Source: a virus. Taken from it: a stretch of 52,845 bases of DNA. Location: IMG/VR virus record IMGVR_UViG_3300025009_000138, positions 1-52,845 of that record, one strand, 5' to 3'. The translations under genes and the position numbers were made by a program. Below the pieces are notes generated by a model, which was not told the origin of the DNA, ran no database searches, and worked only from the letters and a program-made list of their open reading frames with translations. Positions 5,204 through 52,845 of the stretch are shown here, in pieces (positions within the stretch are counted from its first letter, which is position 1; each line of letters opens with the position of its first letter).

Positions 5204-5204
5204 C

Positions 5205-19292: not shown

Positions 19293-19338
19293 TCAGGGCA
19301 GTCGCCGGCATCATTGAGAAAAGTGTAGGAGCCTAAAA

Positions 19339-19452
19339 ATGAACGCCAAAAAACCGTGTATAAGGCACGAACCACTACCAGGACGCGCCGCCTTAATTGT
19401 CGGAGTCCTCACCGACCTCTATAAAAAGTCGTGTTTAGCTCAAGACGCTTGA
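19339..19452 (+). CDS. 37-residue peptide upstream of the polymerase
   Basis: Starts at ATG 19339-19341 behind GTAGGAGCCTAAAA. It begins MNAKKPCIRHEPLPGRAALI and ends KKSCLAQDA: basic and soluble with a short hydrophobic middle. Only the ribosome site and position support it. Confidence 0.4.
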   Translation: MNAKKPCIRHEPLPGRAALIVGVLTDLYKKSCLAQDA

Positions 19453-19510
19453 AAAAGTAGCGTACACACATACAGCAAACGCGCACACTAGAAAGAAGAA
19501 TACGATAACA

Positions 19511-21319
19511 ATGACATCCTCCCGTGTATCACAACAACTCGCTTCAGTAAGTGCCGCTAGAATGGCTCGTCCCGTTCCCGCTGAAGGACCGCTCTCCGCA
19601 CGCATCGCAATAATTGGAGAAGCGCCTGGTAGAACTGAGCGGAACGTCATGCGCCCCTTTGTCGGAGCCTCCGGCAATCTCCTCAAGCGCATGTGGGCAG
19701 ATCCCTCCATAACAGCACTTGTCCCTACTCCGATACGCCGGGAGGATGTTTACATTGACAATTTCTGCCCGTGGCTACCCGAATCACGTCATATAGAATC
19801 CCTCTCGGAACAGGAGATGATAGAATGCCGCAACGCACTCCTAGAACGGCTTGCGCGTCTCTCTTCGCCCGTTGTGATTGTGCCCACAGGGAATTACGCT
19901 TGCTGGGCGCTCGTAGGGAAAGGGAATGTAAAGGGTGTGAAGCTCCCGAAGATGGACAAGGTAGGGATAACATCTCTTCGCGGCTCGATATATGCACTTC
20001 AGTTGAATGGGCGCGTGGTAAAAGTGATCCCTACGCTACATCCATCCGCCGTATTCAATCGAGGTTCGCGTAGTGTGGGCGCTACGAAAGGATCGTTGGA
20101 AAAGCGGAGTGTATGCGATTGGCGAAGGATAGCGATTGAGTCTCTTTATGAAGGATTCAACGAACCCAGGCGCATACATTGCGTTGATCCAATGGAACAA
20201 GAAGTAGCAGCGTTCTATAATCTTATGCGAGACAACCCTGAGTGCGCTTTCTCTGTAGACATTGAAAACCGTAAATCGCCAATATACATGGATTGTATCG
20301 GATTTGCGCATGATCCCTGCTGGAGCTTGACGATACGCTTAGACACTAAAAAGCACCGCGAAACGTTCAATCCTTGGGTACGCGCTATCCTCGATCTCCC
20401 AAACCCTAAGATATTTCAGAATGGCTTGTACGATAATTATTGGCTCCATCATCCTACATACAACATGCCTGTGCGCAACTACGCATGGGATATAATGTAC
20501 ATGCACCATTGCTTTGAGCCTGTAGATTCGCATGATTTAAACTACATCAGCTCAATTTACCTACCCTTTCACCAACACTGGAAGGACATGATTAAAGGAG
20601 ATGAGGATGGCGAAACTGGACTATCCTCATCGTATCATGCGGAAGATTTGGAAACCCGTTGGCGTTACAATGGCCTGGATTGTTGTATTACTCGTGAATT
20701 GCTTCCCTATCTTTATAATGACCTTGCTAACAATAGTAGTGGGGATAACATGCTTGGTTTGTATTTTGCTCACTACCAAGCGCTCTACGAACCCCTCATC
20801 GCAACCATGCTCCACGGAATCAGGATTGACGAAACACAACGAGCACGATTGTATGCGTCCGTCATTGACCAGTGCGTATGGCTCCGAGAACTCCTCACTA
20901 CATACGCTGGAGAAGACCTATACGCTAAGACAGATTTCAGCCGCACCAAGCTCCTGCGGTTGTTCCACGAAACGCTGGGACTTCCCACCAAAACGAAGAT
21001 GACCAAGAAAAAAGATGGAAGCAGAAGTCCCAGCGCTGCTCTCGACAACACAGCACTCGCTAAATACGCGCATCAGTACCCCGAGAAATGCGAAGAGATT
21101 GTATCCATGATCGTGCAGCACCGTGGGAAAGCGAAGCTCCTTACGTGGCTTGAGAAAGATAAGATAGATAAAGATGGGCGCGTGCGTTGTCAGTACACAA
21201 TGAATACGGAAGCTATGCGCTTGAGTAGCAAGTCGAATCCCATGCGCACAGGATACAATTTGCAGAATACAGATAGGGATATACGAGAGATGTATGTACC
21301 AGATATGTTTGATTATTAG
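19511..21319 (+). CDS. Family A DNA polymerase, N-terminal gene with fused uracil-glycosylase-like and 3'-5' exonuclease domains
   Basis: 602 residues. Residues about 30-185 resemble family 4/5 uracil-DNA glycosylases: GEAPGRTERNVMRPFVGASG and the IPTLHPSAVF motif. Residues about 245-395 are the proofreading exonuclease: D250/E252 (SVDIEN), N304/D308 (QNGLYDN) and Y386/D390 (YNGLD). The rest is the polymerase thumb and start of the palm. It stops right after REMYVPD plus four residues, exactly where motif A should follow. The rest of the palm and the fingers are encoded separately at 21559. The two products should assemble into one enzyme. Confidence 0.85.
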   Translation: MTSSRVSQQLASVSAARMARPVPAEGPLSARIAIIGEAPGRTERNVMRPFVGASGNLLKRMWADPSITALVPTPIRREDVYIDNFCPWLPESRHIESLSEQEMIECRNALLERLARLSSPVVIVPTGNYACWALVGKGNVKGVKLPKMDKVGITSLRGSIYALQLNGRVVKVIPTLHPSAVFNRGSRSVGATKGSLEKRSVCDWRRIAIESLYEGFNEPRRIHCVDPMEQEVAAFYNLMRDNPECAFSVDIENRKSPIYMDCIGFAHDPCWSLTIRLDTKKHRETFNPWVRAILDLPNPKIFQNGLYDNYWLHHPTYNMPVRNYAWDIMYMHHCFEPVDSHDLNYISSIYLPFHQHWKDMIKGDEDGETGLSSSYHAEDLETRWRYNGLDCCITRELLPYLYNDLANNSSGDNMLGLYFAHYQALYEPLIATMLHGIRIDETQRARLYASVIDQCVWLRELLTTYAGEDLYAKTDFSRTKLLRLFHETLGLPTKTKMTKKKDGSRSPSAALDNTALAKYAHQYPEKCEEIVSMIVQHRGKAKLLTWLEKDKIDKDGRVRCQYTMNTEAMRLSSKSNPMRTGYNLQNTDRDIREMYVPDMFDY

Positions 21320-38599: not shown

Positions 38600-40456
38600 T
38601 TACGGCAAGTTCGCCCCAGCGATTGTAGCGCCGTCAGTCACACGCTGAAAGAGCATCGTAATCGTGGCGACACCTGCACCAGTACCCGCGTTATCGTCGC
38701 CATGGATGTACACAATCTTCCCTGGCTCCAAATACACAGGCAAGTAATCCGTGGTGCTGTCCTCTTCCGCGTTCCAAGAGACATTCGCACCAAGCCCAGC
38801 AGTCGCCTCCAAAATAATAGGCGCGGCAGCTCCCGTTTTACCTGCCGCATTATCCACGGAAAACTCAATGTTGGTAGGATTGGCGAGCCCCGTAGCGTCC
38901 GTATTAATGAACACGTTTACCAACACCAGCCCACCAGATGACGCACCCGTGATAGCGCCCGCGACTTGTGTATTGTTCGGAATGCTACTCGACGTGACAG
39001 AGGATGTTACCATCAAATACTCACCACTCTTACCCGCGTTCAAGTGCTCCAAGCGCTCAAACACAGAACCATCTCGATTCGACGCAACCGTGCCCGTATC
39101 CATCGCATTATCGGCGTCATTCACACCAATTGCGCCAAGCACAGAGGTTGCCGCGTCTACAGGAGTCGTACCGTTCGTACCCAACGCATCCACGAGCGAT
39201 TTACTGTCTGCGAGCTGCGTACCAAGCGCCGTACCGCCCGAAGCAACAAATCGCGCCAAAGATCCCGCAGTAGGATTTATCGGCAACGTAGCATCGCCAA
39301 TCGTGGTAGTATCTACAAGAATAGCAGCGATTTCCGTATCCAAAAAATCGTCAATCGTAGTAATCGCCGCATCTCGTGCAATACCCTCCGTGACGAGCTG
39401 TTTAATGTACGCCATGATGGTATCAGTGTTAGTGACAGCACCCGACGCCGCAGCATCCGTCAACGTACCCAACAAACTATCCGCTGGTACAATCTGTCCA
39501 CCTGTATCAATTCCACTTGAGTACAAGTTGCCCAAGCAATACATACTACCAGGATCAAGTGACGTGGCATACGCATTGGTGTACAAGCGGTTATCCACAA
39601 TCATACCTGTTGCCGTGCTTGTAAACTCAATCGCATGTTGCCCAGCAGTAGCGTTTGAGATAACGTTACGTGCAATGATCCAATCCAAATCCGCTTTATT
39701 AGACCAGATCCCCGACACCGCAAAGTTACCCCAAACGAAGTTATCGAGCACTTTCCATCCAACGTTTACACCCGTACCCGCTTCAAGAAAGTGATTCGTG
39801 AGGGATGTTGCGGCACCGTAATACGTACAGTTAATGATGGTGCCGTTATCCGCCCCACTCGCCAGATCAACTGCATCCAAAAACTCGAACGTGGCTGTGG
39901 TAGGTTTCGGGAAATCGCAGTTCTTCAACATGAAGTTATCCCCGCCAACCTCTACCGCAATGCCCTTCACGATATCGGAAATACCCGCGAGAAAGCGCAC
40001 ATTCTCAATCGTGACATTCGCGGCACCAACCGCAACCGTGGCATCCGTATCCGCAAACGTGAACGTGGGGCGATTCGCACCTTCTCCCAAGCCCACGATA
40101 CGCACACCCGCCACGTCTACATCAAAGCCATCCGCCGCCGTGAAGCTCTCCGCGTGCCCAGGCGCAACGAAAATGATGTCGCCATTACTCGCGGTACACC
40201 TTCCAATAGCATAGTCCAACGTGGCGAAGGGTTTATCATATGTTCCGTTATCCGCAGAGTCCCGCCGCGCCTCATGCCCGCTATCCACAAAGTACACATT
40301 CCCGGTAGTGGTATACTCCCCGCTGCCAATCTGAGGAGTACCAGCGGAAATCACCATGTCAAACGCTGTGGGTGCCGCGTACAACGCTGGAGTACCCAAC
40401 AGACATGCACACAACACACCGAGCCAAGCAACCTTCCAAACCCTAAGCTTCTTCAT
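38600..40456 (-). CDS. Secreted or virion beta-helix protein with signal peptide
   Basis: 618 residues behind AGAAAGGAGGTGTAAGCGC. MKKLRVWKVAWLGVLCACLL then GTPALYA-APT is a classic Sec signal peptide with cleavage after about residue 28. Residues about 50-320 look like a right-handed beta-helix (NVTIENVRFLAG, NGTIINCTYYG, repeated N-x-ghi strands). The C-terminal part is Asp/Thr/Ala-rich and ends in a beta domain. It lies between the major capsid and connector genes, which makes a signal peptide surprising. Possible roles are a surface fibre or an exported adhesin. Confidence 0.65.
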   Translation of the reverse strand: MKKLRVWKVAWLGVLCACLLGTPALYAAPTAFDMVISAGTPQIGSGEYTTTGNVYFVDSGHEARRDSADNGTYDKPFATLDYAIGRCTASNGDIIFVAPGHAESFTAADGFDVDVAGVRIVGLGEGANRPTFTFADTDATVAVGAANVTIENVRFLAGISDIVKGIAVEVGGDNFMLKNCDFPKPTTATFEFLDAVDLASGADNGTIINCTYYGAATSLTNHFLEAGTGVNVGWKVLDNFVWGNFAVSGIWSNKADLDWIIARNVISNATAGQHAIEFTSTATGMIVDNRLYTNAYATSLDPGSMYCLGNLYSSGIDTGGQIVPADSLLGTLTDAAASGAVTNTDTIMAYIKQLVTEGIARDAAITTIDDFLDTEIAAILVDTTTIGDATLPINPTAGSLARFVASGGTALGTQLADSKSLVDALGTNGTTPVDAATSVLGAIGVNDADNAMDTGTVASNRDGSVFERLEHLNAGKSGEYLMVTSSVTSSSIPNNTQVAGAITGASSGGLVLVNVFINTDATGLANPTNIEFSVDNAAGKTGAAAPIILEATAGLGANVSWNAEEDSTTDYLPVYLEPGKIVYIHGDDNAGTGAGVATITMLFQRVTDGATIAGANLP

Positions 40457-40482
40457 GCGCTTACACCTCCTTTCTCAGGCGC

Positions 40483-41379
40483 TTAACCCGTGCTGCCGTA
40501 CACCCCACGAGGAGTAGCCACACCCTGGGTATGCCGCTGATACGCCGTCGCCACCGCGCTCTTCGTCCGGGGATCGTCAAAGCAATCGAAGATCGGATAG
40601 TCCCTCCACAAGAAGTTCAGGTCATGCTCCCCCTTCTCAGCGAGCGCGAACCATGCCGTCTGACTCGTGAAGTAGTGCCCGATGAACACTTTCAGATCCT
40701 CGTCCAGCAGCGCATTGATTTCATTTTGCGCCGTATAGGGCTTTCCACTCGAACCAAGGATTTCACGCGCCACGAACTTCTTGGCGTAGTGAATCGCAAT
40801 CATGGCAGGAGCCATTTGACGAGGCATGTTTCGCTCATCCGTCATGCCCTCGAAAGTGACGGTCATGTTCTGGAGTCCCGTGATACTGAGCCCGATTTCC
40901 GGGGAAGGACGATTCGCATACGTGGTAGCGTCGATACGAGCATGTGCTGTGTTGAAGAGCGTGCTCGCCGTAAAGCCTGCCGTAACCGAAGTGAAGCCAT
41001 TGTTCATCACAGAGAAAGCGTCCACTTCCTGACGATTCCGAGACGCCCGCGCAAGCCCCTTCACCATCTCCGCGAGTACGCCGTACAGCTCATCCCGCCA
41101 CGCTTCCCAGGAGATTTCCACCGCCAAGCCAAACGGAGTCGCTTCATACTGCTTCGTTCCGCCAATGAGAATTTCGTCCAGCGTAAACTGGCGCATTTCA
41201 TCCTTCGCTGGCATCGTACCCAGCCCTGACACTTGCTGATCGGTGACGGGGTTGTATTCCATTTCCGACACGTTGAAGATCATCGGGTGCTCAAGAGGAC
41301 GCTCCTTACCCGTTTCGTAGTACACTTTCCGCAGATCCGGCGCTATCAATGCCGCGATATACCCTCTGTTGATCGCCAT
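40483..41379 (-). CDS. Major capsid protein
   Basis: 298 residues. FTLDEILIGGTKQYEATPFG then LAVEISWEAWRDELYGVLAE, followed by a helical stretch (GLARASRNRQEVDAFSVMNN), are features of HK97-fold capsid proteins of the Mu gpT-related kind: an E-loop-like region, spine helix and C-terminal P/A-domain strands. Position downstream of scaffold and decoration genes supports it. Confidence 0.75.
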   Translation of the reverse strand: MAINRGYIAALIAPDLRKVYYETGKERPLEHPMIFNVSEMEYNPVTDQQVSGLGTMPAKDEMRQFTLDEILIGGTKQYEATPFGLAVEISWEAWRDELYGVLAEMVKGLARASRNRQEVDAFSVMNNGFTSVTAGFTASTLFNTAHARIDATTYANRPSPEIGLSITGLQNMTVTFEGMTDERNMPRQMAPAMIAIHYAKKFVAREILGSSGKPYTAQNEINALLDEDLKVFIGHYFTSQTAWFALAEKGEHDLNFLWRDYPIFDCFDDPRTKSAVATAYQRHTQGVATPRGVYGSTG

Positions 41380-41447
41380 ACTCGCTAACCTTTCTTCTCC
41401 CCCCGGAAAAGTAGAACAAGTTCACAATACCTGCCGAAGCGTAACAA

Positions 41448-41942
41448 TTACGTGCGGCTGAAGATGGTGTAGTTCTCCTTGAACACAAACTTCACACGAC
41501 CGTTGAGCGTACCCACCGCGTCAATGAAATCGACGATGGTGACTTCGGGGGCGCTTGTGTCCGCCTTGTTGATGTACCAATTGAGCGTACTACCGTCCAC
41601 TTGCAAACCAAACGAAGAATACATATCCGTTTGCGCAATGACCGCTGATGCCGCACTTGCATGATGTACCTGCGCCTCGAAAACGACACCAGGCAAAGGA
41701 GGTACGAACTCCAACGATTGCCCGCGTGTGGTGTTCTTACCGTTTCTCTGCGCAACGCCCACGATTGTACCCGCCGCCATGTTCGCGGCACCCGTCACGA
41801 GATACCCAGCGCTTGAGCTTGCCCCACGCACAATAGGAGCACCCCTCTCAAACGTCTGACTCGCCCCTTCCAATCCCTTCAACATGGGAATGGAGGGGAG
41901 CCCAATCAACTCACTTACCTTGATGCTTTGCGTAACTGCCAT
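41448..41942 (-). CDS. Capsid decoration/stabilisation protein (putative)
   Basis: 164 residues behind GCAAAGGAGGTAACGCAAA. It is beta-rich, with an Ala/Gly-rich core (RGASSSAGYLVTGAANMAAG) and VKFVFKENYTIFSRT at the end. It immediately precedes the major capsid gene, the usual place of head decoration proteins. Confidence 0.55.
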   Translation of the reverse strand: MAVTQSIKVSELIGLPSIPMLKGLEGASQTFERGAPIVRGASSSAGYLVTGAANMAAGTIVGVAQRNGKNTTRGQSLEFVPPLPGVVFEAQVHHASAASAVIAQTDMYSSFGLQVDGSTLNWYINKADTSAPEVTIVDFIDAVGTLNGRVKFVFKENYTIFSRT

Positions 41943-41985
41943 TTTGCGTTACCTCCTTTGCTTATCCACGTTCTCTTCTTCTCAT

Positions 41986-42819
41986 TCAATACGTCACCAC
42001 TTGCACATTCTTACCGAACAAGTTGTCTCTATATTCTTCGTTCTCCGGTATCACCTCCTTCCATGTTTCGTCACCTATACGACGCGCGTGTGAAAGCCAT
42101 TCAAACATGATACGATTCTTAAGCCAGGGACGTTGTAGATGTTGCGGTTGTGGATGTGGAGCACGAAGCTCGAACATATCGTAGAATTGATCCTCAAAGT
42201 GCAGATCATCGTCATTTGGAATACCCCATTTAGAGGAGGGACACACCGCATCCATTTCTGTGCAACCCTTCTTCAAAAGCACCTTCCAACCAGCATCCGC
42301 GATACGCTCCTTCAGCAAAGCCTGTTCCACCAAACCCTTAACCTCCTGCCCTTCTTCCATACTCTGACAATAGAAAAACGCTGCATACCTTGCGCCTGTA
42401 TAATCGCGCCTATCCACACCAAGCTTACCATGCAAGTGCCCCACCCGACACAACATGCGCATTACAGGATACCACTGAAACAACGCCTTCACCGTGGGCA
42501 TAGTCACGACTACCTTATGACAGTATGTGCGGCAATACGCCGGGATGAACGAATGATCCATCAACACACTGAACAGCACATCCTTCCACAAATAACAATG
42601 CATATCCACGTTCACGTTCGGATGCGGCACGAATATCCAAGGACCGTCGAAGTAGCCCATAAGATTCTTTTGCTCAAACAGTCCTTCATCATTTATCGCC
42701 CACCCCTGCTGCATGAGTGTATGCACTCGATTCACCAAGTTACTGTTCCACCAAATACCCTTATCCCAACGTTCTTCAATGGACTTAGGTTTGAAGTTCG
42801 GAAAGTATTTCTCTAACAT
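41986..42819 (-). CDS. 277-residue protein in the head module, unknown
   Basis: Behind GCGGAGGGAGAACGCGA. It is rich in aromatic residues, Cys and His (CRTYCHKVVV, HLHGKLGVDRRDYTGARYAA), soluble and alpha/beta. It lies between the Tad2-like gene and the decoration gene. I recognise no family. An enzyme-like composition is the only hint. Confidence 0.55.
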   Translation of the reverse strand: MLEKYFPNFKPKSIEERWDKGIWWNSNLVNRVHTLMQQGWAINDEGLFEQKNLMGYFDGPWIFVPHPNVNVDMHCYLWKDVLFSVLMDHSFIPAYCRTYCHKVVVTMPTVKALFQWYPVMRMLCRVGHLHGKLGVDRRDYTGARYAAFFYCQSMEEGQEVKGLVEQALLKERIADAGWKVLLKKGCTEMDAVCPSSKWGIPNDDDLHFEDQFYDMFELRAPHPQPQHLQRPWLKNRIMFEWLSHARRIGDETWKEVIPENEEYRDNLFGKNVQVVTY

Positions 42820-42850
42820 TCGCGTTCTCCCTCCGCGTTAAAGCGTCCTG

Positions 42851-43066
42851 TTAATCTACCACGTCCCAATCATCCGCAAACAAGTCCGACATTGAAGGCA
42901 CCCAAGGCACAATATCCCCTTGACTATTTTTAAGGCAAAGAATTTTCCTGCCAAAATCCTCACTATATCGCAACTCCGCATATTGATTAGGCCCATTCCA
43001 CCCACTTCGAGCAACCTTATTGCCACCCTTGAGATAGTTCAATGCTCCCTCAAACGAAAAAGACAT
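42851..43066 (-). CDS. Tad2-like (DUF2829) anti-Thoeris candidate
   Basis: 71 residues behind AGAGGAGAGTGTT. FEGALNYLKGGNKVARSGWN then G, followed by VPWVPSMSDLFADDWDVVD, is the DUF2829 signature (GWNG near the N-terminus; PW-x2-S-x2-D-x-x-A-x-DW near the end). Members of this family, now called Tad2, sequester the cyclic ADP-ribose-type signal of the Thoeris defence and so block it. Length and all main signature residues fit. It sits in the late head operon. Confidence 0.82.
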   Translation of the reverse strand: MSFSFEGALNYLKGGNKVARSGWNGPNQYAELRYSEDFGRKILCLKNSQGDIVPWVPSMSDLFADDWDVVD

Positions 43067-43077
43067 AACACTCTCCT

Positions 43078-43857
43078 CTATTGCCCTACACCCAACCCAA
43101 GCACCGTCCCATCCTTCAACATCTTATCAAGCTGCTGTTGCGCCCCCATCCTCGCGTACAACTCCCTAGCACTCTCCTTGTACCCAGGCGCACGCTTTTG
43201 AATGAAAGCTATCCGATCTTCCGCTTGCTCCTCATCCAGCAACTTGATAGCGTTCCTCGTCTTGTTGTTTCGCTTGTTCTTCTCGTCCATCTCACGCACC
43301 GCATCCGTGGACTCCCCAGCTTGACGCGCACGCACCCATTCCTGATAACGTGCTTCCAACTCGCTACGATCCTTCAACCGGCGCATCAAGATAGTATCGC
43401 CCAACCGAATGTGCCCGTTCACATCAATCAACTCTTCCATCCCTCGCGCTTCAGGCATCGATCTGTCCACGATCTGCCACCCAATAGGCATAGGCCCGCG
43501 ATTGGTGCTCACCACAAGAGACTTGGACATATTGATCTGAAGCCCTCCATTGCCCGTGTACTCGTACTTGTAATCATACTCGTTCTGAGCATTCGGGATA
43601 GAAGAAGCGCTTGAAGCGAGCTGAAAACGAATCTCACGATCCGGTTCCAAAATACGCTCATCCACTTTGAACGCGCCTGTTTCGTTTGCAAGTGTCTCAG
43701 CGGCTTCTTCAAGAGTATCCTGACGTGCTCTCAACACTTCGTCTCGCTCGTGTCCGGGAGGAGGGAGCGCTGCTTCCGCCTGCTGTACGAGCGCATCATG
43801 ATTCTGATCCACGGTATCCACATCCAACAAACTCGGTTTCTTCTTTACGTCTGCCAT
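43078..43857 (-). CDS. 259-residue head-module protein, unknown
   Basis: From ATG 43857, behind AGGTAGAGAAC. The N-terminus is acidic and helical (NHDALVQQAEAALPPPGHER). The centre has a beta-rich part (YDYKYEYTGNGGLQINMSKS) and the C-terminus is basic and helical. Position between scaffold-like and Tad2-like genes suggests a virion or assembly protein. Confidence 0.55.
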   Translation of the reverse strand: MADVKKKPSLLDVDTVDQNHDALVQQAEAALPPPGHERDEVLRARQDTLEEAAETLANETGAFKVDERILEPDREIRFQLASSASSIPNAQNEYDYKYEYTGNGGLQINMSKSLVVSTNRGPMPIGWQIVDRSMPEARGMEELIDVNGHIRLGDTILMRRLKDRSELEARYQEWVRARQAGESTDAVREMDEKNKRNNKTRNAIKLLDEEQAEDRIAFIQKRAPGYKESARELYARMGAQQQLDKMLKDGTVLGLGVGQ

Positions 43858-43880
43858 GTTCTCTACCTCTCCCTCCTCTG

Positions 43881-44714
43881 TTAGTGCAAATATGCCTCGT
43901 GCTCTTTGCAATACTTCTCCCAGCTCTCGTACCCGCGATGACGCAGTTCATCTTCCACGGTGCGACCTTTATACCTCAACGCCTCAATTCCTTCTTTGCC
44001 CCACACATCTTCAGGCGTAGGAAGCTTTTTTGCGACTGCTTCATCATGCGCACTACGGAAAGCTTCACTCGCGTTCGTGTCTCCGGTGATCACACTCACT
44101 GTGGATTCCCGCAAAATCTTCTCGCGGTCAAGCTGCTGAATCTTCGCCAGATTCCTTCCGACCGCGATATCGTACGCTAGCTTCTGAGCGTCCGGAGAAA
44201 TCTGTGCAGCAGGCCCCATCTGCTGAAGCGCCGTGTCGATATCGTTCTTGAGGATATCGTAGTAGGGAAGCGTCGAGAGTTGTTGTTTCATGAGGCTTCC
44301 AATGGCTCCTACACCCGCCGTTTGGATCTGCTGAATATTCCCCAGCATCTCCCGACGCATACGCTCCTGATCCGCCTTGTGACGCTTCGAGATGATTGCG
44401 GCGGCTCCAGCTCCTCCATTCTCCACCGCTGCGTTATATTGCTCGTCTGTCACGTCCTCGATAGCGGGTAGCGTAGTAGTAGTGACGGTCTGCGCGGGTT
44501 GTTTTTCCGCACCCGGAGTCGCCACATTCGAGAGCGATTGAATCTGACTCATCAACGTGGTCTGGAACGCGCTGAATTGATCCATCGTGACGAACGTGGG
44601 CGTTGCAGGTGTTTGGGAATCGGCAAGCGTATCAGAAGGTTTTTGCTCCTCTACGCCCTGTGTCCCCGGATTCGTACTGCCTGCCAAGGTGTCTCTTTTC
44701 CTGCCGAAGAACAT
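43881..44714 (-). CDS. Scaffold-like assembly protein
   Basis: 277 residues behind AGAGGAGAGACAAA. A Thr/Pro/Gln-rich, disordered N-terminus (to about 85) is followed by long charged helices (ISKRHKADQERMRREMLGNI, GRNLAKIQQLDREKILREST). It lies between portal and major capsid genes. The layout fits capsid scaffolding proteins. Confidence 0.6.
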   Translation of the reverse strand: MFFGRKRDTLAGSTNPGTQGVEEQKPSDTLADSQTPATPTFVTMDQFSAFQTTLMSQIQSLSNVATPGAEKQPAQTVTTTTLPAIEDVTDEQYNAAVENGGAGAAAIISKRHKADQERMRREMLGNIQQIQTAGVGAIGSLMKQQLSTLPYYDILKNDIDTALQQMGPAAQISPDAQKLAYDIAVGRNLAKIQQLDREKILRESTVSVITGDTNASEAFRSAHDEAVAKKLPTPEDVWGKEGIEALRYKGRTVEDELRHRGYESWEKYCKEHEAYLH

Positions 44715-44937
44715 TTTGTCTCTCCTCTATCTCATTGATCTCTACAAAAGCTGCCAAGTCTCTTAACGCTTCCATCTTACCGTTTATCTGTAAAGCTTTG
44801 GCGTGAGACTCAACGATTACTTTATTCTGTTCTACCTGATACTGCAAGACACGATGCTCCAAGAACTTCTTGAAACTTCGCATTGCAACATCGTCCCTCT
44901 TCAAACACTCTAGCCACTCCAAATTTTCTGCATCCAC
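44632..44937 (-). CDS. 101-residue helical protein downstream of the portal
   Basis: Starts at GTG 44937, behind GGGAGATTAAAGT that overlaps the portal stop region. It is almost wholly helical and charged (LKRDDVAMRSFKKFLEHRVL, LRDLAAFVEINEIEERQN). Its last 83 bases overlap the scaffold-like gene. Possibly a portal-associated or assembly chaperone; no family recognised. Confidence 0.6.
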   Translation of the reverse strand: MDAENLEWLECLKRDDVAMRSFKKFLEHRVLQYQVEQNKVIVESHAKALQINGKMEALRDLAAFVEINEIEERQNVLRQEKRHLGRQYESGDTGRRGAKTF

Positions 44938-44940
44938 ACT

Positions 44941-46914
44941 TTAATCTCCCTCTGTTGTAGTATTCTCGTTAGGTTCGCCACCATCTACTCCACCACCACC
45001 TAGCAAAGCACTCAAAGCTTCAGCAATACCTCCACCCTGCGCACCTTCTTCACCACCCTCCCCATTCCCTGCACCGACGCTCATACTTTGCACCATCTGC
45101 ACAAGCGACTGCAACACACCCTTATTCACTTGCAACGAATCGATTTCTTTATCCATCTCAATCACAAACGTTGCAGGATCGCGTATAGAGTCAAACGTCC
45201 TAAGCGCACGATCCACCAATTCACCCGTAGAGTGCGCAATCTTCTTGGCGACTTCCGCGACTTCTGGAGGTGTAGTAGGTTGCGCAGCGAGCATGATCAA
45301 CTCTACCGCACGCTGATAATACTGAGCGAGAGTGTTAAGCAATGCCATGTGATCTTGACGCTCCTGCATCTTATTCTGAGCAGCGCTTGTACTCGTCAAC
45401 TCCATTGGCACATTCTCGTCAAACTTGGGATCTGCGAGCATCATACACACACGCGCACCATCATCAGCACCTAGTACGTCAAGAATGTGCTGCATCACAC
45501 GTTGCTCACCTGCCATGATACGTTCTTGATAACGATAAAGTGCTTGCTTGACGGCGTTCCCTAAACACTTTCGCACGTCGTCAAATGCAGGAGTGAAGCG
45601 CTTGCTCACTTGTTGCATCATCGTAAGCGCTGTGATACCTGGAGTACGAGATCCCAATACCTGCGATGGACGAGGAGTGTTCATATCATTCACTCCAACA
45701 CGACGCTCACTCATACTAACCGTGGTTGCAAGAGCCTGCGCAACACCTGTATACTCACGCCCCATATCCGCTACTTCAACATCATTCTTAGGATCGGAAC
45801 AAAACGTTACTTTATTCGGGAAAATGCGCATATTCTCAGGCACGGAACCGTGTTTTGCGAAGTAATGCTTACAGTTGTTGATGATCGCCGCAAGTACCCA
45901 TTGATTGTACAACTCGGTAGCGCTCTCTTGAAACGGCTTAATCATTTCAAGTATTCCAATACCCCCGAATACGTGCGCCCTCTTTTGATAAAACATCTCC
46001 TCCACAGGGCGCCTATCATACGGATTGTACGAGAGCTTCAACACCTTTCGAGAGGTACGATCAAATACACAGAACAGATCCTCCGCAATCCCGTCTCCGT
46101 CAATATCAAAGAAAGGGTACACCTCAATGATTTCGTACAGATAATCATATCCTACACTTGAAGCAGCACGTCCTAGCGTTTCCCTTCTTTGCCGCACCCA
46201 ATCAATGTTGCCCGCTTTAGCAACGCGCTCGTTGTTATCTCCCAAGTCCCATTTATTCACCTTCGCTCTCCCCATCAACTCCTGTTCCGTCAACCAAAAG
46301 CGTATTCCTATCCATCGCATCTCCTGCAAGCTACGAGTGATGGACGGCGGACAAATCAAGTTCTCAATAGGCAACGAGCGAATCTTGGGACCAAATGACA
46401 ACACCTTCCGCGCTTTGTTCTTCTTCACAGTCTCCACAAACGGCACATACAACGCACCGCTACCAAGCTGAATATCGTCAAGAATGCTATCATCAGATGC
46501 TTGTCGTATATCCAACTCATTCGGCACCATCCAATCCACCCAACGCTGCATAGCTTTCTTGCTTTTCTCGGCATCCTCAGCGAGTAAATCAACCCCTTTA
46601 GGAACACTACGCACTGTAATGAAGGGATCTGCGCTGAAAATAGCGTCGATCATCTGCGCATACTGCACATCCGCGTAGATAGCCCCCAACGTAACCTCGA
46701 AATTTGGGGCATTCTCAATAGGCCAATCTTTGAACGGGAACTTTGGCACACCCTCATACAAGCGCATACACTCTCGCCACGTTTGCTCTAACACGTTACG
46801 AGAAGCGAAAGCATTTTCAATCTCTGTGGATATCCATTGCTCAAATTGTTGTATCGCGTCCTCACTAAAGGACGATACCACCGCTTTACTATGCACTTCT
46901 ACAATTTGTGCCAT
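44941..46914 (-). CDS. Portal protein
   Basis: 657 residues. The N-terminal FPFKDWPIENAPNFEVTLGA, then MIDAIFSADPFITVRSVPKG, a beta/helical core (IGIRFWLTEQELMGRAKVNK) and the long helix region near 420-520 (QVSKRFTPAFDDVRKCLGNA) match podoviral-type portals. The C-terminal tail is Gly/Glu/Asn-rich. It is the first gene of the head-assembly order and forms the 12-subunit DNA entry channel. Confidence 0.8.
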   Translation of the reverse strand: MAQIVEVHSKAVVSSFSEDAIQQFEQWISTEIENAFASRNVLEQTWRECMRLYEGVPKFPFKDWPIENAPNFEVTLGAIYADVQYAQMIDAIFSADPFITVRSVPKGVDLLAEDAEKSKKAMQRWVDWMVPNELDIRQASDDSILDDIQLGSGALYVPFVETVKKNKARKVLSFGPKIRSLPIENLICPPSITRSLQEMRWIGIRFWLTEQELMGRAKVNKWDLGDNNERVAKAGNIDWVRQRRETLGRAASSVGYDYLYEIIEVYPFFDIDGDGIAEDLFCVFDRTSRKVLKLSYNPYDRRPVEEMFYQKRAHVFGGIGILEMIKPFQESATELYNQWVLAAIINNCKHYFAKHGSVPENMRIFPNKVTFCSDPKNDVEVADMGREYTGVAQALATTVSMSERRVGVNDMNTPRPSQVLGSRTPGITALTMMQQVSKRFTPAFDDVRKCLGNAVKQALYRYQERIMAGEQRVMQHILDVLGADDGARVCMMLADPKFDENVPMELTSTSAAQNKMQERQDHMALLNTLAQYYQRAVELIMLAAQPTTPPEVAEVAKKIAHSTGELVDRALRTFDSIRDPATFVIEMDKEIDSLQVNKGVLQSLVQMVQSMSVGAGNGEGGEEGAQGGGIAEALSALLGGGGVDGGEPNENTTTEGD

Positions 46915-46921
46915 TCTGACA

Positions 46922-47647
46922 TTATCCTTTATGAGTGTTACTTTTCGCTAATAGAGCATCCAGCGCTCGACGCTCTTCACTATTTTTTAGGTGCATCGGA
47001 GCCCACATGGCCACCCCGCCGAATTTGAGCCGCCGGATCTCCGCGATCTGACGCTCCATATTGGGCAACCACGCGGCATCTGATTTTCGCCACCTCGGAT
47101 CAGTGTGGGTAACGATGCCCATAAGCGTCTTCCTGAGTTTGACAGGCCCCAGGTTGTAGCGCTCCGCGAAGTCCGCGAAGTCCAGCCGCCCCTCTTCGCT
47201 CCGGTACAGCTCAGGGGAAACCAGATCACAGAACCGATACAACATGGAAACGGTCCCTGAGTCGTTGTTGACCGTGGCATTTCCAACCCAAACATGGACG
47301 AGCTTTCCAGGACACCGCACTCGAAACTTCTTGAGCGCCTGTTTCAACTTAGCAAACCGCTCGGGCGTCAAAGTCCCAAGCAAGATTTCGTCCAGACTCA
47401 CACCGTCGCACTCGCCCTGCGCTGCCGCGATCATGGCATTTCGGAGCACACCGTCCTCGTCAAGCATCGTGTTGGCGTAGACAGTATGGAGAATTTTCTT
47501 TCCCTGGTCGCGCCTGAATTTCTTCTGTGTATCACTTCCCTGAATAGGGAGAATCGTCACGATATCGACACTCTCCATGTCCCATGGCTCGGTAATCATG
47601 GGCTGTTGCTCGTACCTTTTGGGCCAGCAGTACGATAGGACTTGCAT
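46922..47647 (-). CDS. TIM-barrel/glycosidase-like protein (putative)
   Basis: 241 residues behind TTGAGGAGAATCGA. Features such as VDIVTILPIQGS, AAAQGECDGVSLDEILLGTL, VHVWVGNATVNNDSGTVSML and FGGVAMWAPMHL look like successive beta-alpha units of a TIM barrel, with Asp/Glu at strand ends (DGVSLDE) as in glycoside hydrolases. No signal peptide. It lies in the surface-protein cassette, so glycan processing is plausible but unproven. Confidence 0.45.
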   Translation of the reverse strand: MQVLSYCWPKRYEQQPMITEPWDMESVDIVTILPIQGSDTQKKFRRDQGKKILHTVYANTMLDEDGVLRNAMIAAAQGECDGVSLDEILLGTLTPERFAKLKQALKKFRVRCPGKLVHVWVGNATVNNDSGTVSMLYRFCDLVSPELYRSEEGRLDFADFAERYNLGPVKLRKTLMGIVTHTDPRWRKSDAAWLPNMERQIAEIRRLKFGGVAMWAPMHLKNSEERRALDALLAKSNTHKG

Positions 47648-47657
47648 TCGATTCTCC

Positions 47658-49016
47658 TCAATTCATACTGACGTAGCGCATCCAGTCCCACAGTGAACTT
47701 ATGATTATGGGACGATGGGCCGGTGGAATGGTGTAGACTATTACGAGCTTGGGCCGGTTTTCTGCCGTTGCGTCGTCTGAGGTAGAAAACTGGTATGAAT
47801 CGTCTGTTTCTGTGTCAGCTTTTATAAGCCACCCATTCCCGAGATCTAATCCGAACTTTGTGGTGGGGGTAAGGGCGAAATTTTTAAACTCATTTAACGT
47901 TTCAGTTGACGAAAACGCCCGTGAGCCAATATCTGTTTGTTCGCAGTCGTCAGTATGAAATGCCCCAGCCGTTGACCAGTTACTTGCCGTGGCCCAAATA
48001 TTCCATGTCACTTCCGCTTCAACCCATGCCCTTTTCAACCGATAAACTCTAAACGTCCTGGCATTTGACGAGTAATCCGTAACGGCATAAAGGCTAAGTG
48101 TAGTAGACGATATGATAGCATTTGTGGGCAAAGTAGAGAGATCGAATTTAATAGCTGACCTATAAACTGTCGATCCAGTATTAAACTCTCCCACATGTAT
48201 GGTAGTTGCCGATCCATAATTAGTGCTCGGAGCAACATCCAAAAAAACAGCATCATACCCTGCCCCGTCCGGTTGAAGCGTCAATGTAGGATCGACCACA
48301 GGCCGATTCATTCCCGTGAGATCCGGTAGCGTGAACAGGATGTAATGCTGGCCGTCCACGCTCACAAACTGATTCGTGATCTTCCGAACATCTCCAGGAT
48401 TGGCAGCATCATAGGCTACGGGAGCCCGCAGAACCGACACGACTTTCTCTCCATCCTTGATGAGCGTCCCCGAGCGAGTAAGCCCTTGCAGCCCAACCGG
48501 AAAGGCGAATTGCCCATCCCTTGGGAGCCACCCACCAAGAAGCTCAATGTCCAGTTTCATGAAATGGCCGGCGTGAACGATGGAGAGAAGCGCGTTCGGG
48601 TTCGTCCATGTGAGTTTGTTGCCGGCTTTCGTTGGCCCGGTGAACGCCGGTTTGATCCACATACCAGAGGCGTTCTTTACGAGCGGAGCGCCAATCTCCA
48701 TGTACTTCGAGTCGTCACCCGGAATAGGGTATATTCGCCGCATTCCATCGGGCGCCATTTTAACTCTGAGCTTCGAGGTCGTAACGACGTTGGGAAATTC
48801 GGCATCTCCATCGCTCCAGGCCGTTGATATCCGCTGAAGCTTCCCTTGCGCGTCCTTGAAAGCAATAGGGGCACTGTGAATCGTGGTTCGATACTGACCG
48901 CCGCCAATCGCTTCCGTCTCCGAAAACTCACCGGATATCTCGGGAGCAGCTAGAACCGGAAAGGTGAGAAGCAGGCAGAAAAGAAATGCTAATCCGTGCG
49001 CGTAAACTCGAAACAT
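47658..49016 (-). CDS. Secreted DNRLRE-domain protein
   Basis: 452 residues behind CAGGAGCGACGGT. Residues 1-24 (MFRVYAHGLAFLFCLLLTFP then VLA-APE) are a Sec signal peptide. After a beta-rich N-terminal part, residues about 245-435 fit the DNRLRE (CBM96-type) domain: DVAPSTNYGSATTIHVGEFN, FDLSTLPTNAIISSTTLSLY, WVEAEVTWNIWATASNW and PKLVIVYTI. These domains bind polysaccharides on bacterial extracellular proteins and are rare in phages. Exported surface or glycan-binding protein. Confidence 0.72.
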   Translation of the reverse strand: MFRVYAHGLAFLFCLLLTFPVLAAPEISGEFSETEAIGGGQYRTTIHSAPIAFKDAQGKLQRISTAWSDGDAEFPNVVTTSKLRVKMAPDGMRRIYPIPGDDSKYMEIGAPLVKNASGMWIKPAFTGPTKAGNKLTWTNPNALLSIVHAGHFMKLDIELLGGWLPRDGQFAFPVGLQGLTRSGTLIKDGEKVVSVLRAPVAYDAANPGDVRKITNQFVSVDGQHYILFTLPDLTGMNRPVVDPTLTLQPDGAGYDAVFLDVAPSTNYGSATTIHVGEFNTGSTVYRSAIKFDLSTLPTNAIISSTTLSLYAVTDYSSNARTFRVYRLKRAWVEAEVTWNIWATASNWSTAGAFHTDDCEQTDIGSRAFSSTETLNEFKNFALTPTTKFGLDLGNGWLIKADTETDDSYQFSTSDDATAENRPKLVIVYTIPPAHRPIIISSLWDWMRYVSMN

Positions 49017-49606
49017 ACCGTCGCTCCTGTAATCGTTGCCGCCGCGTCCACGTTCACCACGTACCAGTCGCCCGCCGCGCCCGCCGCTTCGCCGGCATCG
49101 AAGCTCGTAATTTCAAAGTAGTTGTCTGCCGAAGCATCGGCTATGGCCGGTTCGGTTGCCGTGTCAAATGGGCTGTCGGCGTCGGTCAATGCTGCCAAGC
49201 CAGTGGTAGCCCCTGGAGCATCCACCCATATATCTATGGTCATCGAACCGACCACCGCATATGTCGTAAGGATGACCTTTGTCAACGTATGCGGGAACGT
49301 TACCTCGAAAGCCGTATTCCAGTGCGTCCCGGTAGAAATTGCGGCAACATAGTCCCCAACAGGAACACATGCCACCACGGAAGTCGTCGATGATGTAAGT
49401 TTGGCCACTGGCACCGATGCTGCCGTGAGGACCGACCCCTCCAGGGTATCGTTGTCCGTTCCGTCTCCGGCCACTCGATCAGGATCAAAGTCGTTGCTGG
49501 TAGCCGACTCAAAATCCGAGCTCGGCCCGATCTGGACAATGGTCGCGGAGAAACACGTTGAGGCAATAAGACTCAGGCAAAACAGGAACACCAATATTTT
49601 CTTCAT
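48989..49606 (-). CDS. Secreted small beta protein with signal peptide
   Basis: 205 residues from ATG 49606, nine bases after GGAG; ATG 49612 is an alternative. MKKILVFLFCLSLIASTCFS, then ATIVQ, is a clear Sec signal peptide. The mature protein is acidic and beta-rich with a jelly-roll-like pattern (VTFPHTLTKVILTTYAVVGS, MTIDIWVDAPGATTGLAALT). Its end overlaps the start of the DNRLRE gene by 28 bases. It could be a small carbohydrate-binding or adhesin-like protein. Confidence 0.62.
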   Translation of the reverse strand: MKKILVFLFCLSLIASTCFSATIVQIGPSSDFESATSNDFDPDRVAGDGTDNDTLEGSVLTAASVPVAKLTSSTTSVVACVPVGDYVAAISTGTHWNTAFEVTFPHTLTKVILTTYAVVGSMTIDIWVDAPGATTGLAALTDADSPFDTATEPAIADASADNYFEITSFDAGEAAGAAGDWYVVNVDAAATITGATVCFEFTRTD

Positions 49607-49631
49607 GTTCATTCTCTCCTTTGACATTACC

Positions 49632-52487
49632 TCAGTTCAAAACTGCCGCGAAAAAGTTCTGTGCAACCACATCCGCACCATTGGCACACTCGCCGGTAAA
49701 CTTAAGGGCCTTTGCTCCGCTTATCGCTTCCGTGGCCGCGATGCCCATATAGTTGGTATCGCCGTCTGCATTATGGAATGTGCCGTACATCATTTGCGTG
49801 GCCGCGCCAGTCACCAGGATAAATCCCCTAAACCACCAATCCCCTTCAGTGGTCGTTCCAGAGAGCAACGTAAAAGCCGTGGTCCCGAAGTACAATTTGA
49901 TCGTGTGGTTACCCGCCGTGCCGGTAACCGTGCCGGTTGCCTCGATATCAATCTTTGAATCCGTTTTGAGCATCGCCGCCGTAAGCGTCGTGGCAACCAT
50001 GAGGTTGTCTTCGCCGGTGCCAGAGCTTGGAACAGACGTCACGGATTTATACCAAGTCCTGCCGCCAATATACGACTTCTCCGCCAAGTTAGGCCGCAGT
50101 AGTCCGCCCGTAACCGTGGCGCTGCTCAGTGACCGATCAAGCGTGATCGAGCTCGGCTCCCCCGTCGTCGCCACTTCGCGGATGATGGCCCAATCCGTCG
50201 TTACGCCGGCCGCGTCAAGAAAATTGGCGGCGGCAAAGGCTCCATTTGCAACGGCCCCGTCCGTGTCGATCTGGATTGCCCTCCCAACCGTAAGCCCTTC
50301 CTTGGCCCCGGCACCATCCCCAGCAACAACGGACATTGTAAACTCACCGTTGGTAATAGTTCCTTCACTCCAGTCCTGTAGGGCGTCGGGTTGCACGTCT
50401 CCGGGCTCGACTCCATTAAGGTCAACGAGTGATCCCGAGCCGGGTTCGGTGGCTTGCCATCCAACTAACCCCCCGGAATTCGCCTTGGTCGGATCATCGT
50501 TTAGAAAGACGTGCCCCTTTGGAATGACTCTTGTGTAATTGGCCCCGTCTCCAGAACGATCAAGCGTAATTCCAGGGTGGAGATGGTCCTGAATGTCAAG
50601 CCTTGAAAGGACGGACTGAGACGCGATGTGAATTTGCTTTGTTACGGTGTCATAATCCAAATCAAGCTTTGGGAGTTTGTTCCCTCTGAACGTCCCGTCA
50701 GAAGGAGCACCGCTGAACTGAAACATATAGCCGACGTATGCCGGGGCCGTTGCGCCCTGGTAACTCAACAACTCGCAACCCTGAACATTGAGCGCCGTTG
50801 CATCTTTGAGGTATGCGATATATCGTTTGGACGAATATGAGAAATGCTGTCCGTAAAGGTTCAGTATAGTGGAATAATAACCGTCGCCATTGATTCGAAT
50901 ATGAGCATCCCCACCGTCCGAATCCCCATTCGATTCCCAATAATGAGAACCACCAATAATGGTCACCATCTGCCCAAATTGCGCGCTCAATCCATAGCCA
51001 GTGACCGGAGAGGAGTAGTTACCGGCGTATCTACCACAAAGCTCAATCCAGCAGTTTATCAGGCTGAGGTTGTCACCGTAATATTCCGCATAGATTCCGC
51101 CCACGTTACACGTACTGATTTTGCTGTTCTCTAGCGTTGTTCCATTCCACTTCCCATAGGTCTTCATCCCCCATTTTGCCGTCGAGATCGTGAGATCTCG
51201 AAGCTTGGCGTAATAGAGATCATTGGCGATGTAGATGCCGGTTCCAAAACCGATAATGCTTACGTTCTCAATTTTCGCAGACTTGGCGTTGTAGAAATTC
51301 AATCCCACCGTTAAAGGATTGGTCTCGTTGTCCGGCGTAGCGTCCCCAGTGGTGTACGGTCCCGAGAGTCGAATTCCGGTGATGGCCCCCGAGAAGTCCA
51401 GGTTGCTCCCGTCCCCGTTTCTGAAATCAATCGCTGTTCCTGTACCGGTGTATTTGATCTGCCCGCCACCCCCGCCAGTGACCGTATTGAACGTTCCAGT
51501 CTGTGAGCTGCCCACATGCCCACGAAGCCATATGGGATAGTTCGTTGTTCCGTTGTTCGGCCATATCAACGTGGAAGCGATCAACGAAACTCCATTATGA
51601 TCCAGAATGCCGCCCGTTGCAGGGAATGCGTCTAGGGCGCACTGCCAGGCGTTGGCGTCGTCTTCCGTTCCGCCAAAACCTGGCCCAAACATTTCAGGAT
51701 AAATCACAACAGGATCAGCGAACACCACTCCACCTGGTTGTGTACTAAATAACTGACGATTCTCGTATTTTACAGATGCGCCAAAAGTAAATGTTAAAAT
51801 GTTAGTGGATGTTGAAGTAAGTATAGCATTCGGAAGAGCGCTATACACCATTTTTGCTGGGACTGTTCTTGGAGCTGTGAGCGCTTCAGAACGAGCAAGA
51901 ACTATTTCAGATGCAGGAGGAGCATTAGCAATAGCACTCTCAAAAGATCCATACGCCTCTGTGGATACTACCCCACCAGACCTAAGATCCTCTACAGCAG
52001 TAATCGCCGCTCCACTCGTGTCCACACGCATTAAACGCACTGTGTAGGAAGGTGTTACAGGCTCGGCAGCACCCGCTACCATTTCAGCGAATACTATATG
52101 CGTTGCGCGTGTTACAGTAGCTCCTGCAATCGTTATTGTACGCGCTGAATCGTAGTCAGCGTACACATATGTACGAGTGGAGGCTGTGTACGTATGCGAA
52201 AAAGCATCCTTATATACGTAATATCCGCCAGGAAACGCAGTAAGCGCGGAGATTGTATGCGCAAGGGTACCGGATGTTGCGCCTATGCCTCCTTGAAGAG
52301 TGTATCCTGAATATTTCTTTTGAAAGCGTGCAGCATTCTCACCTTTAAGAAAAGCTTGCAGAGTGGTAAGGAATGTGGAGTCACTTACGGGGAGAGTATT
52401 AATTGTTTGAGTTGCGCCCCATATTAATGAAGCAGTTAGGAAGATTACAATGAAAGATTCTAGGATGCGCTGCCGCCATGTTTTCAC
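49632..52487 (-). CDS. Large beta-helix tail-spike-like protein with signal peptide
   Basis: 951 residues from GTG 52487 behind GGAGGAGGGTATAAC. The N-terminus MKTWRQRILESFIVIFLTAS then LIWGATQT is a signal peptide or anchor. Residues about 30-260 are a distinct beta-rich head. From about 262 on, GPGFGGTEDDANAWQCALDA opens a pectate-lyase-like right-handed beta-helix (IENVSIIGFGTGIYIANDLY, NSKISTCNVGGIYAEYYGDN) typical of depolymerase spikes. The last 170 residues form a separate beta domain. It is probably a receptor-binding or capsule-degrading spike, unusual in carrying a signal peptide. Confidence 0.72.
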   Translation of the reverse strand: MKTWRQRILESFIVIFLTASLIWGATQTINTLPVSDSTFLTTLQAFLKGENAARFQKKYSGYTLQGGIGATSGTLAHTISALTAFPGGYYVYKDAFSHTYTASTRTYVYADYDSARTITIAGATVTRATHIVFAEMVAGAAEPVTPSYTVRLMRVDTSGAAITAVEDLRSGGVVSTEAYGSFESAIANAPPASEIVLARSEALTAPRTVPAKMVYSALPNAILTSTSTNILTFTFGASVKYENRQLFSTQPGGVVFADPVVIYPEMFGPGFGGTEDDANAWQCALDAFPATGGILDHNGVSLIASTLIWPNNGTTNYPIWLRGHVGSSQTGTFNTVTGGGGGQIKYTGTGTAIDFRNGDGSNLDFSGAITGIRLSGPYTTGDATPDNETNPLTVGLNFYNAKSAKIENVSIIGFGTGIYIANDLYYAKLRDLTISTAKWGMKTYGKWNGTTLENSKISTCNVGGIYAEYYGDNLSLINCWIELCGRYAGNYSSPVTGYGLSAQFGQMVTIIGGSHYWESNGDSDGGDAHIRINGDGYYSTILNLYGQHFSYSSKRYIAYLKDATALNVQGCELLSYQGATAPAYVGYMFQFSGAPSDGTFRGNKLPKLDLDYDTVTKQIHIASQSVLSRLDIQDHLHPGITLDRSGDGANYTRVIPKGHVFLNDDPTKANSGGLVGWQATEPGSGSLVDLNGVEPGDVQPDALQDWSEGTITNGEFTMSVVAGDGAGAKEGLTVGRAIQIDTDGAVANGAFAAANFLDAAGVTTDWAIIREVATTGEPSSITLDRSLSSATVTGGLLRPNLAEKSYIGGRTWYKSVTSVPSSGTGEDNLMVATTLTAAMLKTDSKIDIEATGTVTGTAGNHTIKLYFGTTAFTLLSGTTTEGDWWFRGFILVTGAATQMMYGTFHNADGDTNYMGIAATEAISGAKALKFTGECANGADVVAQNFFAAVLN

Positions 52488-52577: not shown

Positions 52578-52845
52578 TTACGCGAAGTAAACGTAGAGAT
52601 ACCCTCCCGCCGTCAACGTAGCAAGAGTTATTCCATCAAACCACTGACCCTCAACAAAATCAAGCTCTTGCTCACCAGCGGGCGCAGCAGCACTAGACGT
52701 AGCAGTCCAAATTTCTCCACCATCCGCTTCGTTTATTGCAAGAGATTGTCCAGCAGCAGAAGGCTTCCACAATAACTTACGTATTTTGACTTGGCCTGTT
52801 GAGATAGCGGCGGCGGTATCCAATGTCCATACATGCGAATCGTAT
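52578..52845 (-). CDS. Small structural-type protein, C-terminal part (starts at 140 of the left end)
   Basis: This is the remainder of the 92-residue gene whose ATG lies at 138-140 of the left end. The visible part ends DGITLATLTAGGYLYVYFA at the stop 52578. A TTG at 52821-52823 is in frame but is not the true start, since the frame continues upstream to a good ATG after circularisation. It lies directly upstream of the large spike gene in transcription order. Confidence 0.8.
   Translation of the reverse strand, partial: YDSHVWTLDTAAAISTGQVKIRKLLWKPSAAGQSLAINEADGGEIWTATSSAAAPAGEQELDFVEGQWFDGITLATLTAGGYLYVYFA
52720..52845. repeat. Right copy of the 126-bp terminal overlap
   Basis: Identical to 4-129; see the left copy. 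It shows that the genome unit is about 52,719 bp if the overlap is counted once. Confidence 0.95.

Follow-up and report, generated by a model that had tools for sequence, protein, structure and literature searches.

Predicted Sec signal peptides on fibre- and spike-type proteins of a tailed virus, and on tail nozzles of other phages, suggest export of distal tail parts

The stretch of DNA analysed here (the window) spans a whole IMG/VR virus record of 52,845 bases. A late block on its minus strand carries the portal and major capsid genes and the four genes to which an earlier note on this DNA had assigned Sec signal peptides (SPs), as follows.

38600-40456, minus strand: right-handed beta-helix protein, 618 aa including the SP, directly downstream of the major capsid gene (AF2, Foldseek)
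40376-40456, minus strand: predicted SP of this product, 27 codons, to LYA-AP (or TPA-LY), exact site uncertain (heuristic, AF2, dN)
40483-41379, minus strand: major capsid protein, no SP by the heuristic (Pfam Phage_capsid_4, E 1e-8; PHROG major head protein, E 1e-3)
44941-46914, minus strand: portal protein, no SP by the heuristic (Pfam SU10_portal, E 5e-21)
47658-49016, minus strand: 452-aa SP protein with a C-terminal DNRLRE/CBM96/Disaggr_repeat domain at residues 260-426 (Pfam; NCBIfam NF033679, E 4e-23)
48948-49016, minus strand: predicted SP of this product, 23 codons, VLA-AP (heuristic)
48989-49606, minus strand: 205-aa SP protein (phmmer match to a protein of contig L007)
49544-49606, minus strand: predicted SP of this product, 21 codons, FSA-TI (heuristic, L007 homologue)
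49632-52487, minus strand: 951-aa beta-helix protein, tailspike-like (Pfam Beta_helix, E 1e-6)
52416-52487, minus strand: predicted SP of this product, 24 codons, IWG-AT (heuristic, L007 homologue)

SPs were predicted with a heuristic of our own, which looked for a basic n-region, an uncharged, nine-residue hydrophobic core and small residues at positions -3 and -1; it was applied to 52 chosen CDS, each in-frame ATG, GTG or TTG within the first 40 codons being tried. Exactly four CDS were positive, 38600-40456, 47658-49016, 48989-49606 and 49632-52487, and no head gene was among them, so the four late genes proposed in the earlier note were recovered, as heuristic predictions, from ORFs present at these places on the minus strand. 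All four products had the basic n-region and uncharged core within their first 25 residues. The Ala-x-Ala-like cleavage sites that the same note had seen in at least three proved weaker than stated: a textbook A/V-x-A site was clear only in 47658-49016 (VLA-AP), the others reading LYA-AP (or TPA-LY), FSA-TI and IWG-AT. A strict lipobox, [LVI][ASTVI][GAS]C, as expected of a superinfection-exclusion lipoprotein, was absent from the end of the hydrophobic core in the four N-termini as read by eye. A resolvase (5205-6413) gave a weak call from an internal start, only under a looser start window. In controls the heuristic was positive for 342/10400 shuffled N-termini (3.3%), for 168/10400 samples of whole-protein composition (1.6%) and for 21/190 non-CDS ORFs (11%); because of the last figure a single SP call carries little weight, and the argument is built on comparison.

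Shine-Dalgarno-like sequences were noted 5' of the SP start codons of 38600-40456 (AAAGGAGGTG), 49632-52487 (TTAGGAGGAG) and 47658-49016 (CAGGAG), and for 48989-49606 the start at 49606 (MKKILV...) is plausible beside a longer alternative at 49627. The product of 38600-40456, for which Pfam gave no match, was modelled by AF2 with a helix at residues 2-20, low confidence from there to about residue 40 and a confident beta-helix at approximately residues 41-315, the overall mean pLDDT of 57.5 reflecting a poor C-terminal half; its top Foldseek matches were rhamnogalacturonan lyase and phage tailspikes. Relatives found for the product of 47658-49016 were partial matches to the DNRLRE-type domain only. 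This gene forms a block upstream of the portal gene with 48989-49606 and 49632-52487, and the gene immediately before the portal is different in the nearest relative of the window. The window proteins tested included no phrog_376 nozzle, and the unknown proteins of the window gave no Pfam match. The window proteins scanned gave no terminase match and an ORF at 52578-52844 is cut by the record end, which indicates that the record may be incomplete. The 602-aa protein encoded at 19511-21319 combines a uracil-DNA-glycosylase domain with a weak 3'-5' exonuclease match.

The SPs of the window were compared with those of close relatives. Between the window and L004 (the contig of L002; 93% identity to the window in the portal and 99% in the capsid protein), 14 of the first 32 residues of the beta-helix protein differ, as against 24 of the remaining 586. 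Correspondingly, dN was 0.288 for SP codons 1-32, 0.018 for codons 33-330 and 0.034 for codons 331-618, while dS was similar in the three parts (0.61, 0.50 and 0.66, respectively). The basic start and hydrophobic core were kept despite this change of letters, and divergence of SP letters ahead of a nearly constant mature part is what is expected of a cleaved SP. Judged from these codons, the leader region of 38600-40456 is translated and is evolving freely in its letters. The mature N-terminus of the 48989-49606 product is common to a longer SP protein of L007 (phmmer E approximately 1e-17, residues 11-73 of the 212-aa reading), the gene for which directly follows the L007 spike; the two have unlike SPs, an identical FSA-T junction and a similar mature start. 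Similarly, the 49632-52487 product is 79% identical over residues 231-951 to a protein of the same IMG/VR phage contig, the homologue having an unlike N-terminal domain, again behind an SP.

The family of the capsid-adjacent beta-helix protein was collected with a profile (A1) of the 38600-40456 core without its SP, which gave 437 IMG/VR relatives, 80 of which were kept. An SP was present at 20 of the 80 loci, or about a quarter (21 were called; L062, positive by the heuristic, was relabelled false by eye). Family members without an SP begin with sequence resembling the mature start of the SP kind, e.g., FPNGVTSFGVP...TTGNVFFVDS, and a version without an SP, annotated as lacto-N-biosidase, also adjoins the capsid gene of the Manatee Spring podovirus (MW202647). 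SP versions were 331-1447 aa in length, longer than most of those without (mostly 297-336 aa). In a tree of 76 rows, from which 14 near-duplicate or partial rows of 90 had been left out, 16 SP rows formed one all-SP clade (support 99) in which the SP was kept over long branches, and four SP rows lay elsewhere. At least three SP changes were forced on this tree (parsimony 4) and two were found on a nozzle tree (96 nozzles dereplicated to 49 at 80% identity), results that lowered the standing of many independent SP gains, a candidate that had been considered. Other plus-strand ORFs with SPs were more frequent in the 20 SP loci (32/200) than in the 60 loci without (39/649, many of these positives being weak internal starts; Fisher p 3e-5). 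The SP beta-helix gene at 8371-10869 of L006 carries a single in-frame TAG at 9211-9213, which is either an error or recoding.

Phages reached through this family carried SPs on tail proteins of assigned class. An SP gene of L006 was identified as the tail nozzle (phrog_376), with residue 25, right behind the SP, corresponding to profile position 3; full-length matches to this profile were obtained for L006 (E 9e-169), L086 (E 1e-180), L128 (E 1e-209) and L142 (E 3e-178), those of L128 and L142 likewise starting behind the SP (residue 28 at profile position 4 and residue 21 at position 5, respectively). Tailspikes with SPs showed the same arrangement, residue 22 of the L124 protein corresponding to position 2 of phrog_13893 and residue 21 of the L139 protein to position 3 of phrog_1640. 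When SP nozzles were matched to nozzles of cultured or named phages, all 60 matches listed, out of 190 records, started within residues 21-26 of the SP nozzle; the nozzles of epsilon15, HTVC010P and vir555 have no SP. The capsid family of the window is not that of the nozzle-SP phages.

A search of a collection of genomes from 84,980 species with profile A1 gave seven loci on six contigs, among which an SP beta-helix was found only on the 44.7-kb contig JAQTMR010000018 (contig C18 of G001), binned as Phycisphaerae. A 127-bp end repeat indicates that this contig is probably a complete circular phage. Its SP genes encode the capsid-adjacent beta-helix protein, two unknowns, a tailspike (phrog_2234 and phrog_1640) and the nozzle (phrog_376, E 1e-180), and no SP was called on its terminase, portal, capsid, gene after the capsid, adaptor (phrog_394) or three genes after the nozzle. 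Other SP calls on this contig were a lipoprotein-like gene (39120-39743) and weak ones, among them 26590-27102; its candidate lysis genes had no Pfam match. The lipoprotein-like gene has a counterpart at 5573-6112 of L013; in both of these SP phages, which are unlike each other, it lies between portal and capsid, and the mature parts appeared similar by eye.

The C18 phage and its MAG have tRNA-Met and short interspersed repeats in common, weak evidence of a link; no clear CRISPR spacer was found in the two 20-kb stretches of the 44.7 kb searched. An attempt at host matching by SP style gave no clear difference between three MAG samples and the phage set. Nozzle SPs throughout the Planctomycetota were rejected, since phrog_376 was found in 13/392 genomes and, among the N-termini of the loci read, a nozzle SP only on the G001 contig; phrog_376 was absent from five other MAGs. 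Likewise rejected was the occurrence of the window capsid protein in this phylum (only 2/392 weak matches). Of the contigs that the A1 search gave, L091 and L092 had one SP-like gene each. A small late gene with an SP-like start was seen in L003 (vir526, 12533-13048) and L119 (vir555, 4869-5384), two viruses assigned to Methanomicrobiales. Two ORFs of L040 (305-553 and 873-1415) start with RRxFLK Tat-like motifs, the second running by eye into terminase-like sequence. Radical-SAM-like ORFs, recognized by eye from a CNLRCPRC-type motif, lie between virion genes in L018 (14090-14881), L006 (5132-5962) and L007 (7651-8613).

The distribution of SPs among protein classes was counted in three sets. 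In 28 contigs chosen for having an SP protein, only ORFs with their own start being counted, SPs were found in none of 62 ORFs of the head, adaptor and internal classes (adaptor 0/14, major capsid protein 0/17, portal 0/16, gp14-like 0/9, gp15-like 0/3, gp16-like 0/1, cement-like 0/2) and in one of five large terminases (L018, doubtful, an SP-like stretch inside a gene overlap). Counts for the tail proteins of these contigs were 15/18 nozzle ORFs, 4/6 tailspikes and 21/22 beta-helix proteins, the nozzle and beta-helix figures being inflated by selection; an SP preceded the nozzle in 12 of the 28. Mixed cases were L154 and L029, with an SP on the beta-helix protein and none on the nozzle. In the first set, SPs were noted on 9/25 nozzles, 0/19 adaptors, 0/43 capsids, 0/10 gp14-like proteins, 1/33 portals (an internal start) and 1/12 terminases. 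The nozzle census was performed with a profile (A4) of nozzle cores without SP and covered at least 80 IMG/VR loci chosen regardless of SP. Among the loci listed, 11/80 nozzle ORFs had an SP; these included three contigs already known and two near-duplicate pairs, and the call on L122 is doubtful because the leader lies far ahead of the nozzle domain. No SP was found, among the loci listed, on adaptor (0/73), portal (0/28), capsid (0/5) or terminase by three models (0/16, 0/16 and 0/1), while gp14-like proteins gave 2/62 (Ala-rich and weak) and tailspike-type proteins 3/12.

Cleavage sites were evaluated on N-termini picked on the hydrophobic core alone. A loose c-region site (A/V/S/T-x-A/G) was present in 65 of 88, compared with 50.0 +/- 3.8 in shuffles (0/1000 as high); in the same N-termini the strict [AV]xA motif was not enriched (26 against 20.6, 80/1000 shuffles as high). 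At +1 of the phage SP set, Gln was outside the six commonest residues. Cysteines per 100 residues were 1.87 in SP and 2.54 in SP-less beta-helix proteins, and 0.91 and 0.74 in the corresponding nozzles (p 0.08); exported versions are thus not enriched in cysteine and give no sign of disulfides, so that a disulfide hypothesis was unsupported and was set aside.

Divided or repeated nozzles also carried leaders. The nozzle of L019 is cut at phrog_376 position 92/93 into two ORFs, each with its own SP, which in the second piece is a separate basic, hydrophobic leader; an additional, partial nozzle in L125 (profile 479-549 plus a C-terminal part) likewise opens with a hydrophobic leader, and L025 has two N-terminal nozzle copies with unlike SPs. 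A leader on each nozzle piece is as predicted by delivery to a compartment. Three SP-like starts of L019, leaders of the nozzle pieces (18197-20550) among them, are made of repeats: the DNA of one leader contains, and that of a second resembles, a CTCTGTG-type repeat, and the third is a short AGATTTAAGATTTC-like repeat. In 400 kb of chromosome from the Phycisphaerae MAG, 9 copies of the CTCTGTG-type repeat were counted, and in 275 kb and 161 kb from two other MAGs none. The L019 leaders indicate that hydrophobic leaders can arise cheaply, and such repeats are provisionally regarded as one source of new SPs.

The usual view is that tailed phages are put together entirely in the cytoplasm, and in podovirus assembly the nozzle, spikes and fibres are added last. 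In this phage and across a broader set of uncultivated short-tailed phages, SPs on outer tail parts (spikes, fibres and, in some, the nozzle) and their lack on head parts suggest that part of the tail leaves the cytoplasm before the particle is finished. In the mechanism proposed, Sec SPs would direct receptor-binding spike- and fibre-type proteins through the cytoplasmic membrane, joined by the nozzle in other phages of the set. The head, portal, adaptor and internal (ejection) proteins would carry no SP, with assembly and DNA packaging in the cytoplasm. Since the exported parts are those added last, the tail would be completed where the two pools meet, either on a membrane-docked head or upon rupture of the membrane during lysis. 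Gene position and homologues that lack an SP suggest that the products of 38600-40456 and 49632-52487 are virion parts. For the window the claim is narrower than for the set, namely four putatively exported proteins of fibre or spike type, that is, SP fibres or spikes and no SP nozzle.

Export of the distal tail is favoured because the SP products lie outside and are added last while head, adaptor and ejection-type proteins lack SPs. Somewhat probably, then, the N-termini are true Sec SPs, receptor-binding or distal tail proteins are exported and the particle is completed outside the cytoplasm, at the envelope or on lysis; export, cleavage, presence in the virion and the place and time of joining are presumptive. 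Against this were counted the weak strict motif, the lack of cysteine enrichment, a window in which none of the proteins tested is a phrog_376 nozzle and the capsid family is a different one, the mixed cases L154 and L029, the L018 terminase and the repeat-made leaders of L019, and also that a DNA-filled head would have to wait without its nozzle. The wider proposition of two-compartment tailed phages, with DNA-filled heads and adaptor built in the cytoplasm, Sec exporting the nozzle, spikes and fibres, joining at the membrane or at lysis, and new SPs arising even from in-frame repeats as in L019, is put forward tentatively, as a possibility that may well fail.

The earlier note starts from the premise that SPs are normally missing from phage virion proteins. 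PMC6199706, in the part of that article considered, is in line with this and uses lack of SPs in support of a phage origin of variable proteins. Of the two suggestions in the note, the better supported was that assembly may involve the envelope, given the virion-type homologues and the SPs before nozzle (phrog_376) and tailspikes and not before head, adaptor or internal proteins. The other suggestion, display on the infected cell, may apply to the four window proteins, one of which has a carbohydrate-binding-type DNRLRE/CBM96 domain, but gives no account of SPs on the nozzle. The corresponding alternative, that these four are exported and are not virion parts, being carbohydrate-binding or -cleaving proteins secreted or displayed for superinfection block, glycan change or as decoys, is considered unlikely. 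In its favour, the fold matches of the beta-helices include secreted polysaccharide lyases alongside tailspikes, the CBM96/DNRLRE domain is present in the 47658-49016 product, three of the four genes form the block upstream of the portal, where the adjoining gene differs in the nearest relative, and Porphyromonas gingivalis phages have exported proteins of unknown function (PMC10367356, in the part considered). However, most members of the beta-helix family beside the capsid gene have no SP, so that in other phages they presumably stay in the cytoplasm, and SPs on tailspikes with tail-attachment N-domains, as on the nozzle, are not accounted for.

Hydrophobic N-termini that are not export signals, and that are kept in or clipped from cytoplasmic particles as membrane-piercing tips, oligomerisation peptides or phage-protease propeptides, are thought quite unlikely. 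In favour of this reading, the tips of nozzles and spikes come into contact with the membrane when a phage infects. For capsid proteins of P. gingivalis phages, the part of PMC10367356 considered suggests that their SP-like starts are cut by the prohead protease. Yet the leaders stand on proteins unlike in position and fold, their letters turn over fast without loss of the basic n-region or the hydrophobic core, the loose c-region site is enriched, the second piece of the split nozzle has its own copy, though away from the nozzle N-terminus, and capsid and adaptor never carry a leader in the 28 SP contigs. An origin by chance or through faulty annotation (starts set upstream, reading in a shifted frame or functionless repeat-born leaders), to which the 11% of positive non-CDS ORFs, the three repeat-encoded L019 leaders and the L018 terminase leader within an overlap would conform, is very improbable in view of an SP maintained along the long branches of a 16-row clade, ribosome-binding-like sites at window SP starts and, with one caller, adaptors at 0/92 (19 + 73) as against nozzles at 9/25 and 11/80 (loci listed).

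Should distal tail parts indeed be exported, one would need to reconsider in what order and where these phages are assembled, it would be an error to annotate such genes as secreted proteins of the host, and a late checkpoint keeping progeny incomplete before release would have a natural explanation. The Lentisphaerae phage zth2-2 (PMC11361711, in the part considered), a candidate model of chronic release, was rejected, its nozzle and spike having no SP. SPs are known on lysis proteins of tailed phages, e.g., an endolysin (PMC8951688, in the part considered), and titles and abstract openings of literature on nozzle, tail or virion SPs of tailed phages, subscription journals and preprints aside, report no nozzle or spike with an SP.

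Compared with bacterial substrates of Sec and signal peptidase I, the proteins described here share the basic n-region, the hydrophobic core, fast letter turnover and, clearly only in 47658-49016, small residues before the junction; they differ in lying in a virion gene block of a tailed phage, in a consensus site that is weak in three of four and in that cleavage is only predicted. The nozzles of the relatives are full-length homologues of the tail nozzle, or tail tubular protein B (phrog_376; gp12 of epsilon15, gp13 of HTVC010P), in the same order beside the adaptor, and differ in the SP before them in 12 of the 28 SP contigs, which is lacking in epsilon15, HTVC010P and vir555. The phages of P. 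gingivalis (PMC10367356, in the part considered) likewise have proteins with Sec SPs adapted to host secretion; there the SPs are on capsid proteins, spanins and unknowns and follow the Bacteroidetes Q rule, whereas here they are on nozzle, spikes and fibres. The window, with its portal and major capsid genes, falls outside the Inoviridae, the filamentous phages whose coat proteins have SPs and whose assembly takes place at the membrane. With these the proposed view would share virion proteins that are Sec substrates and a particle finished at the envelope, the difference being that here the phages are dsDNA tailed phages with SPs only on distal tail parts and never on the capsid protein.
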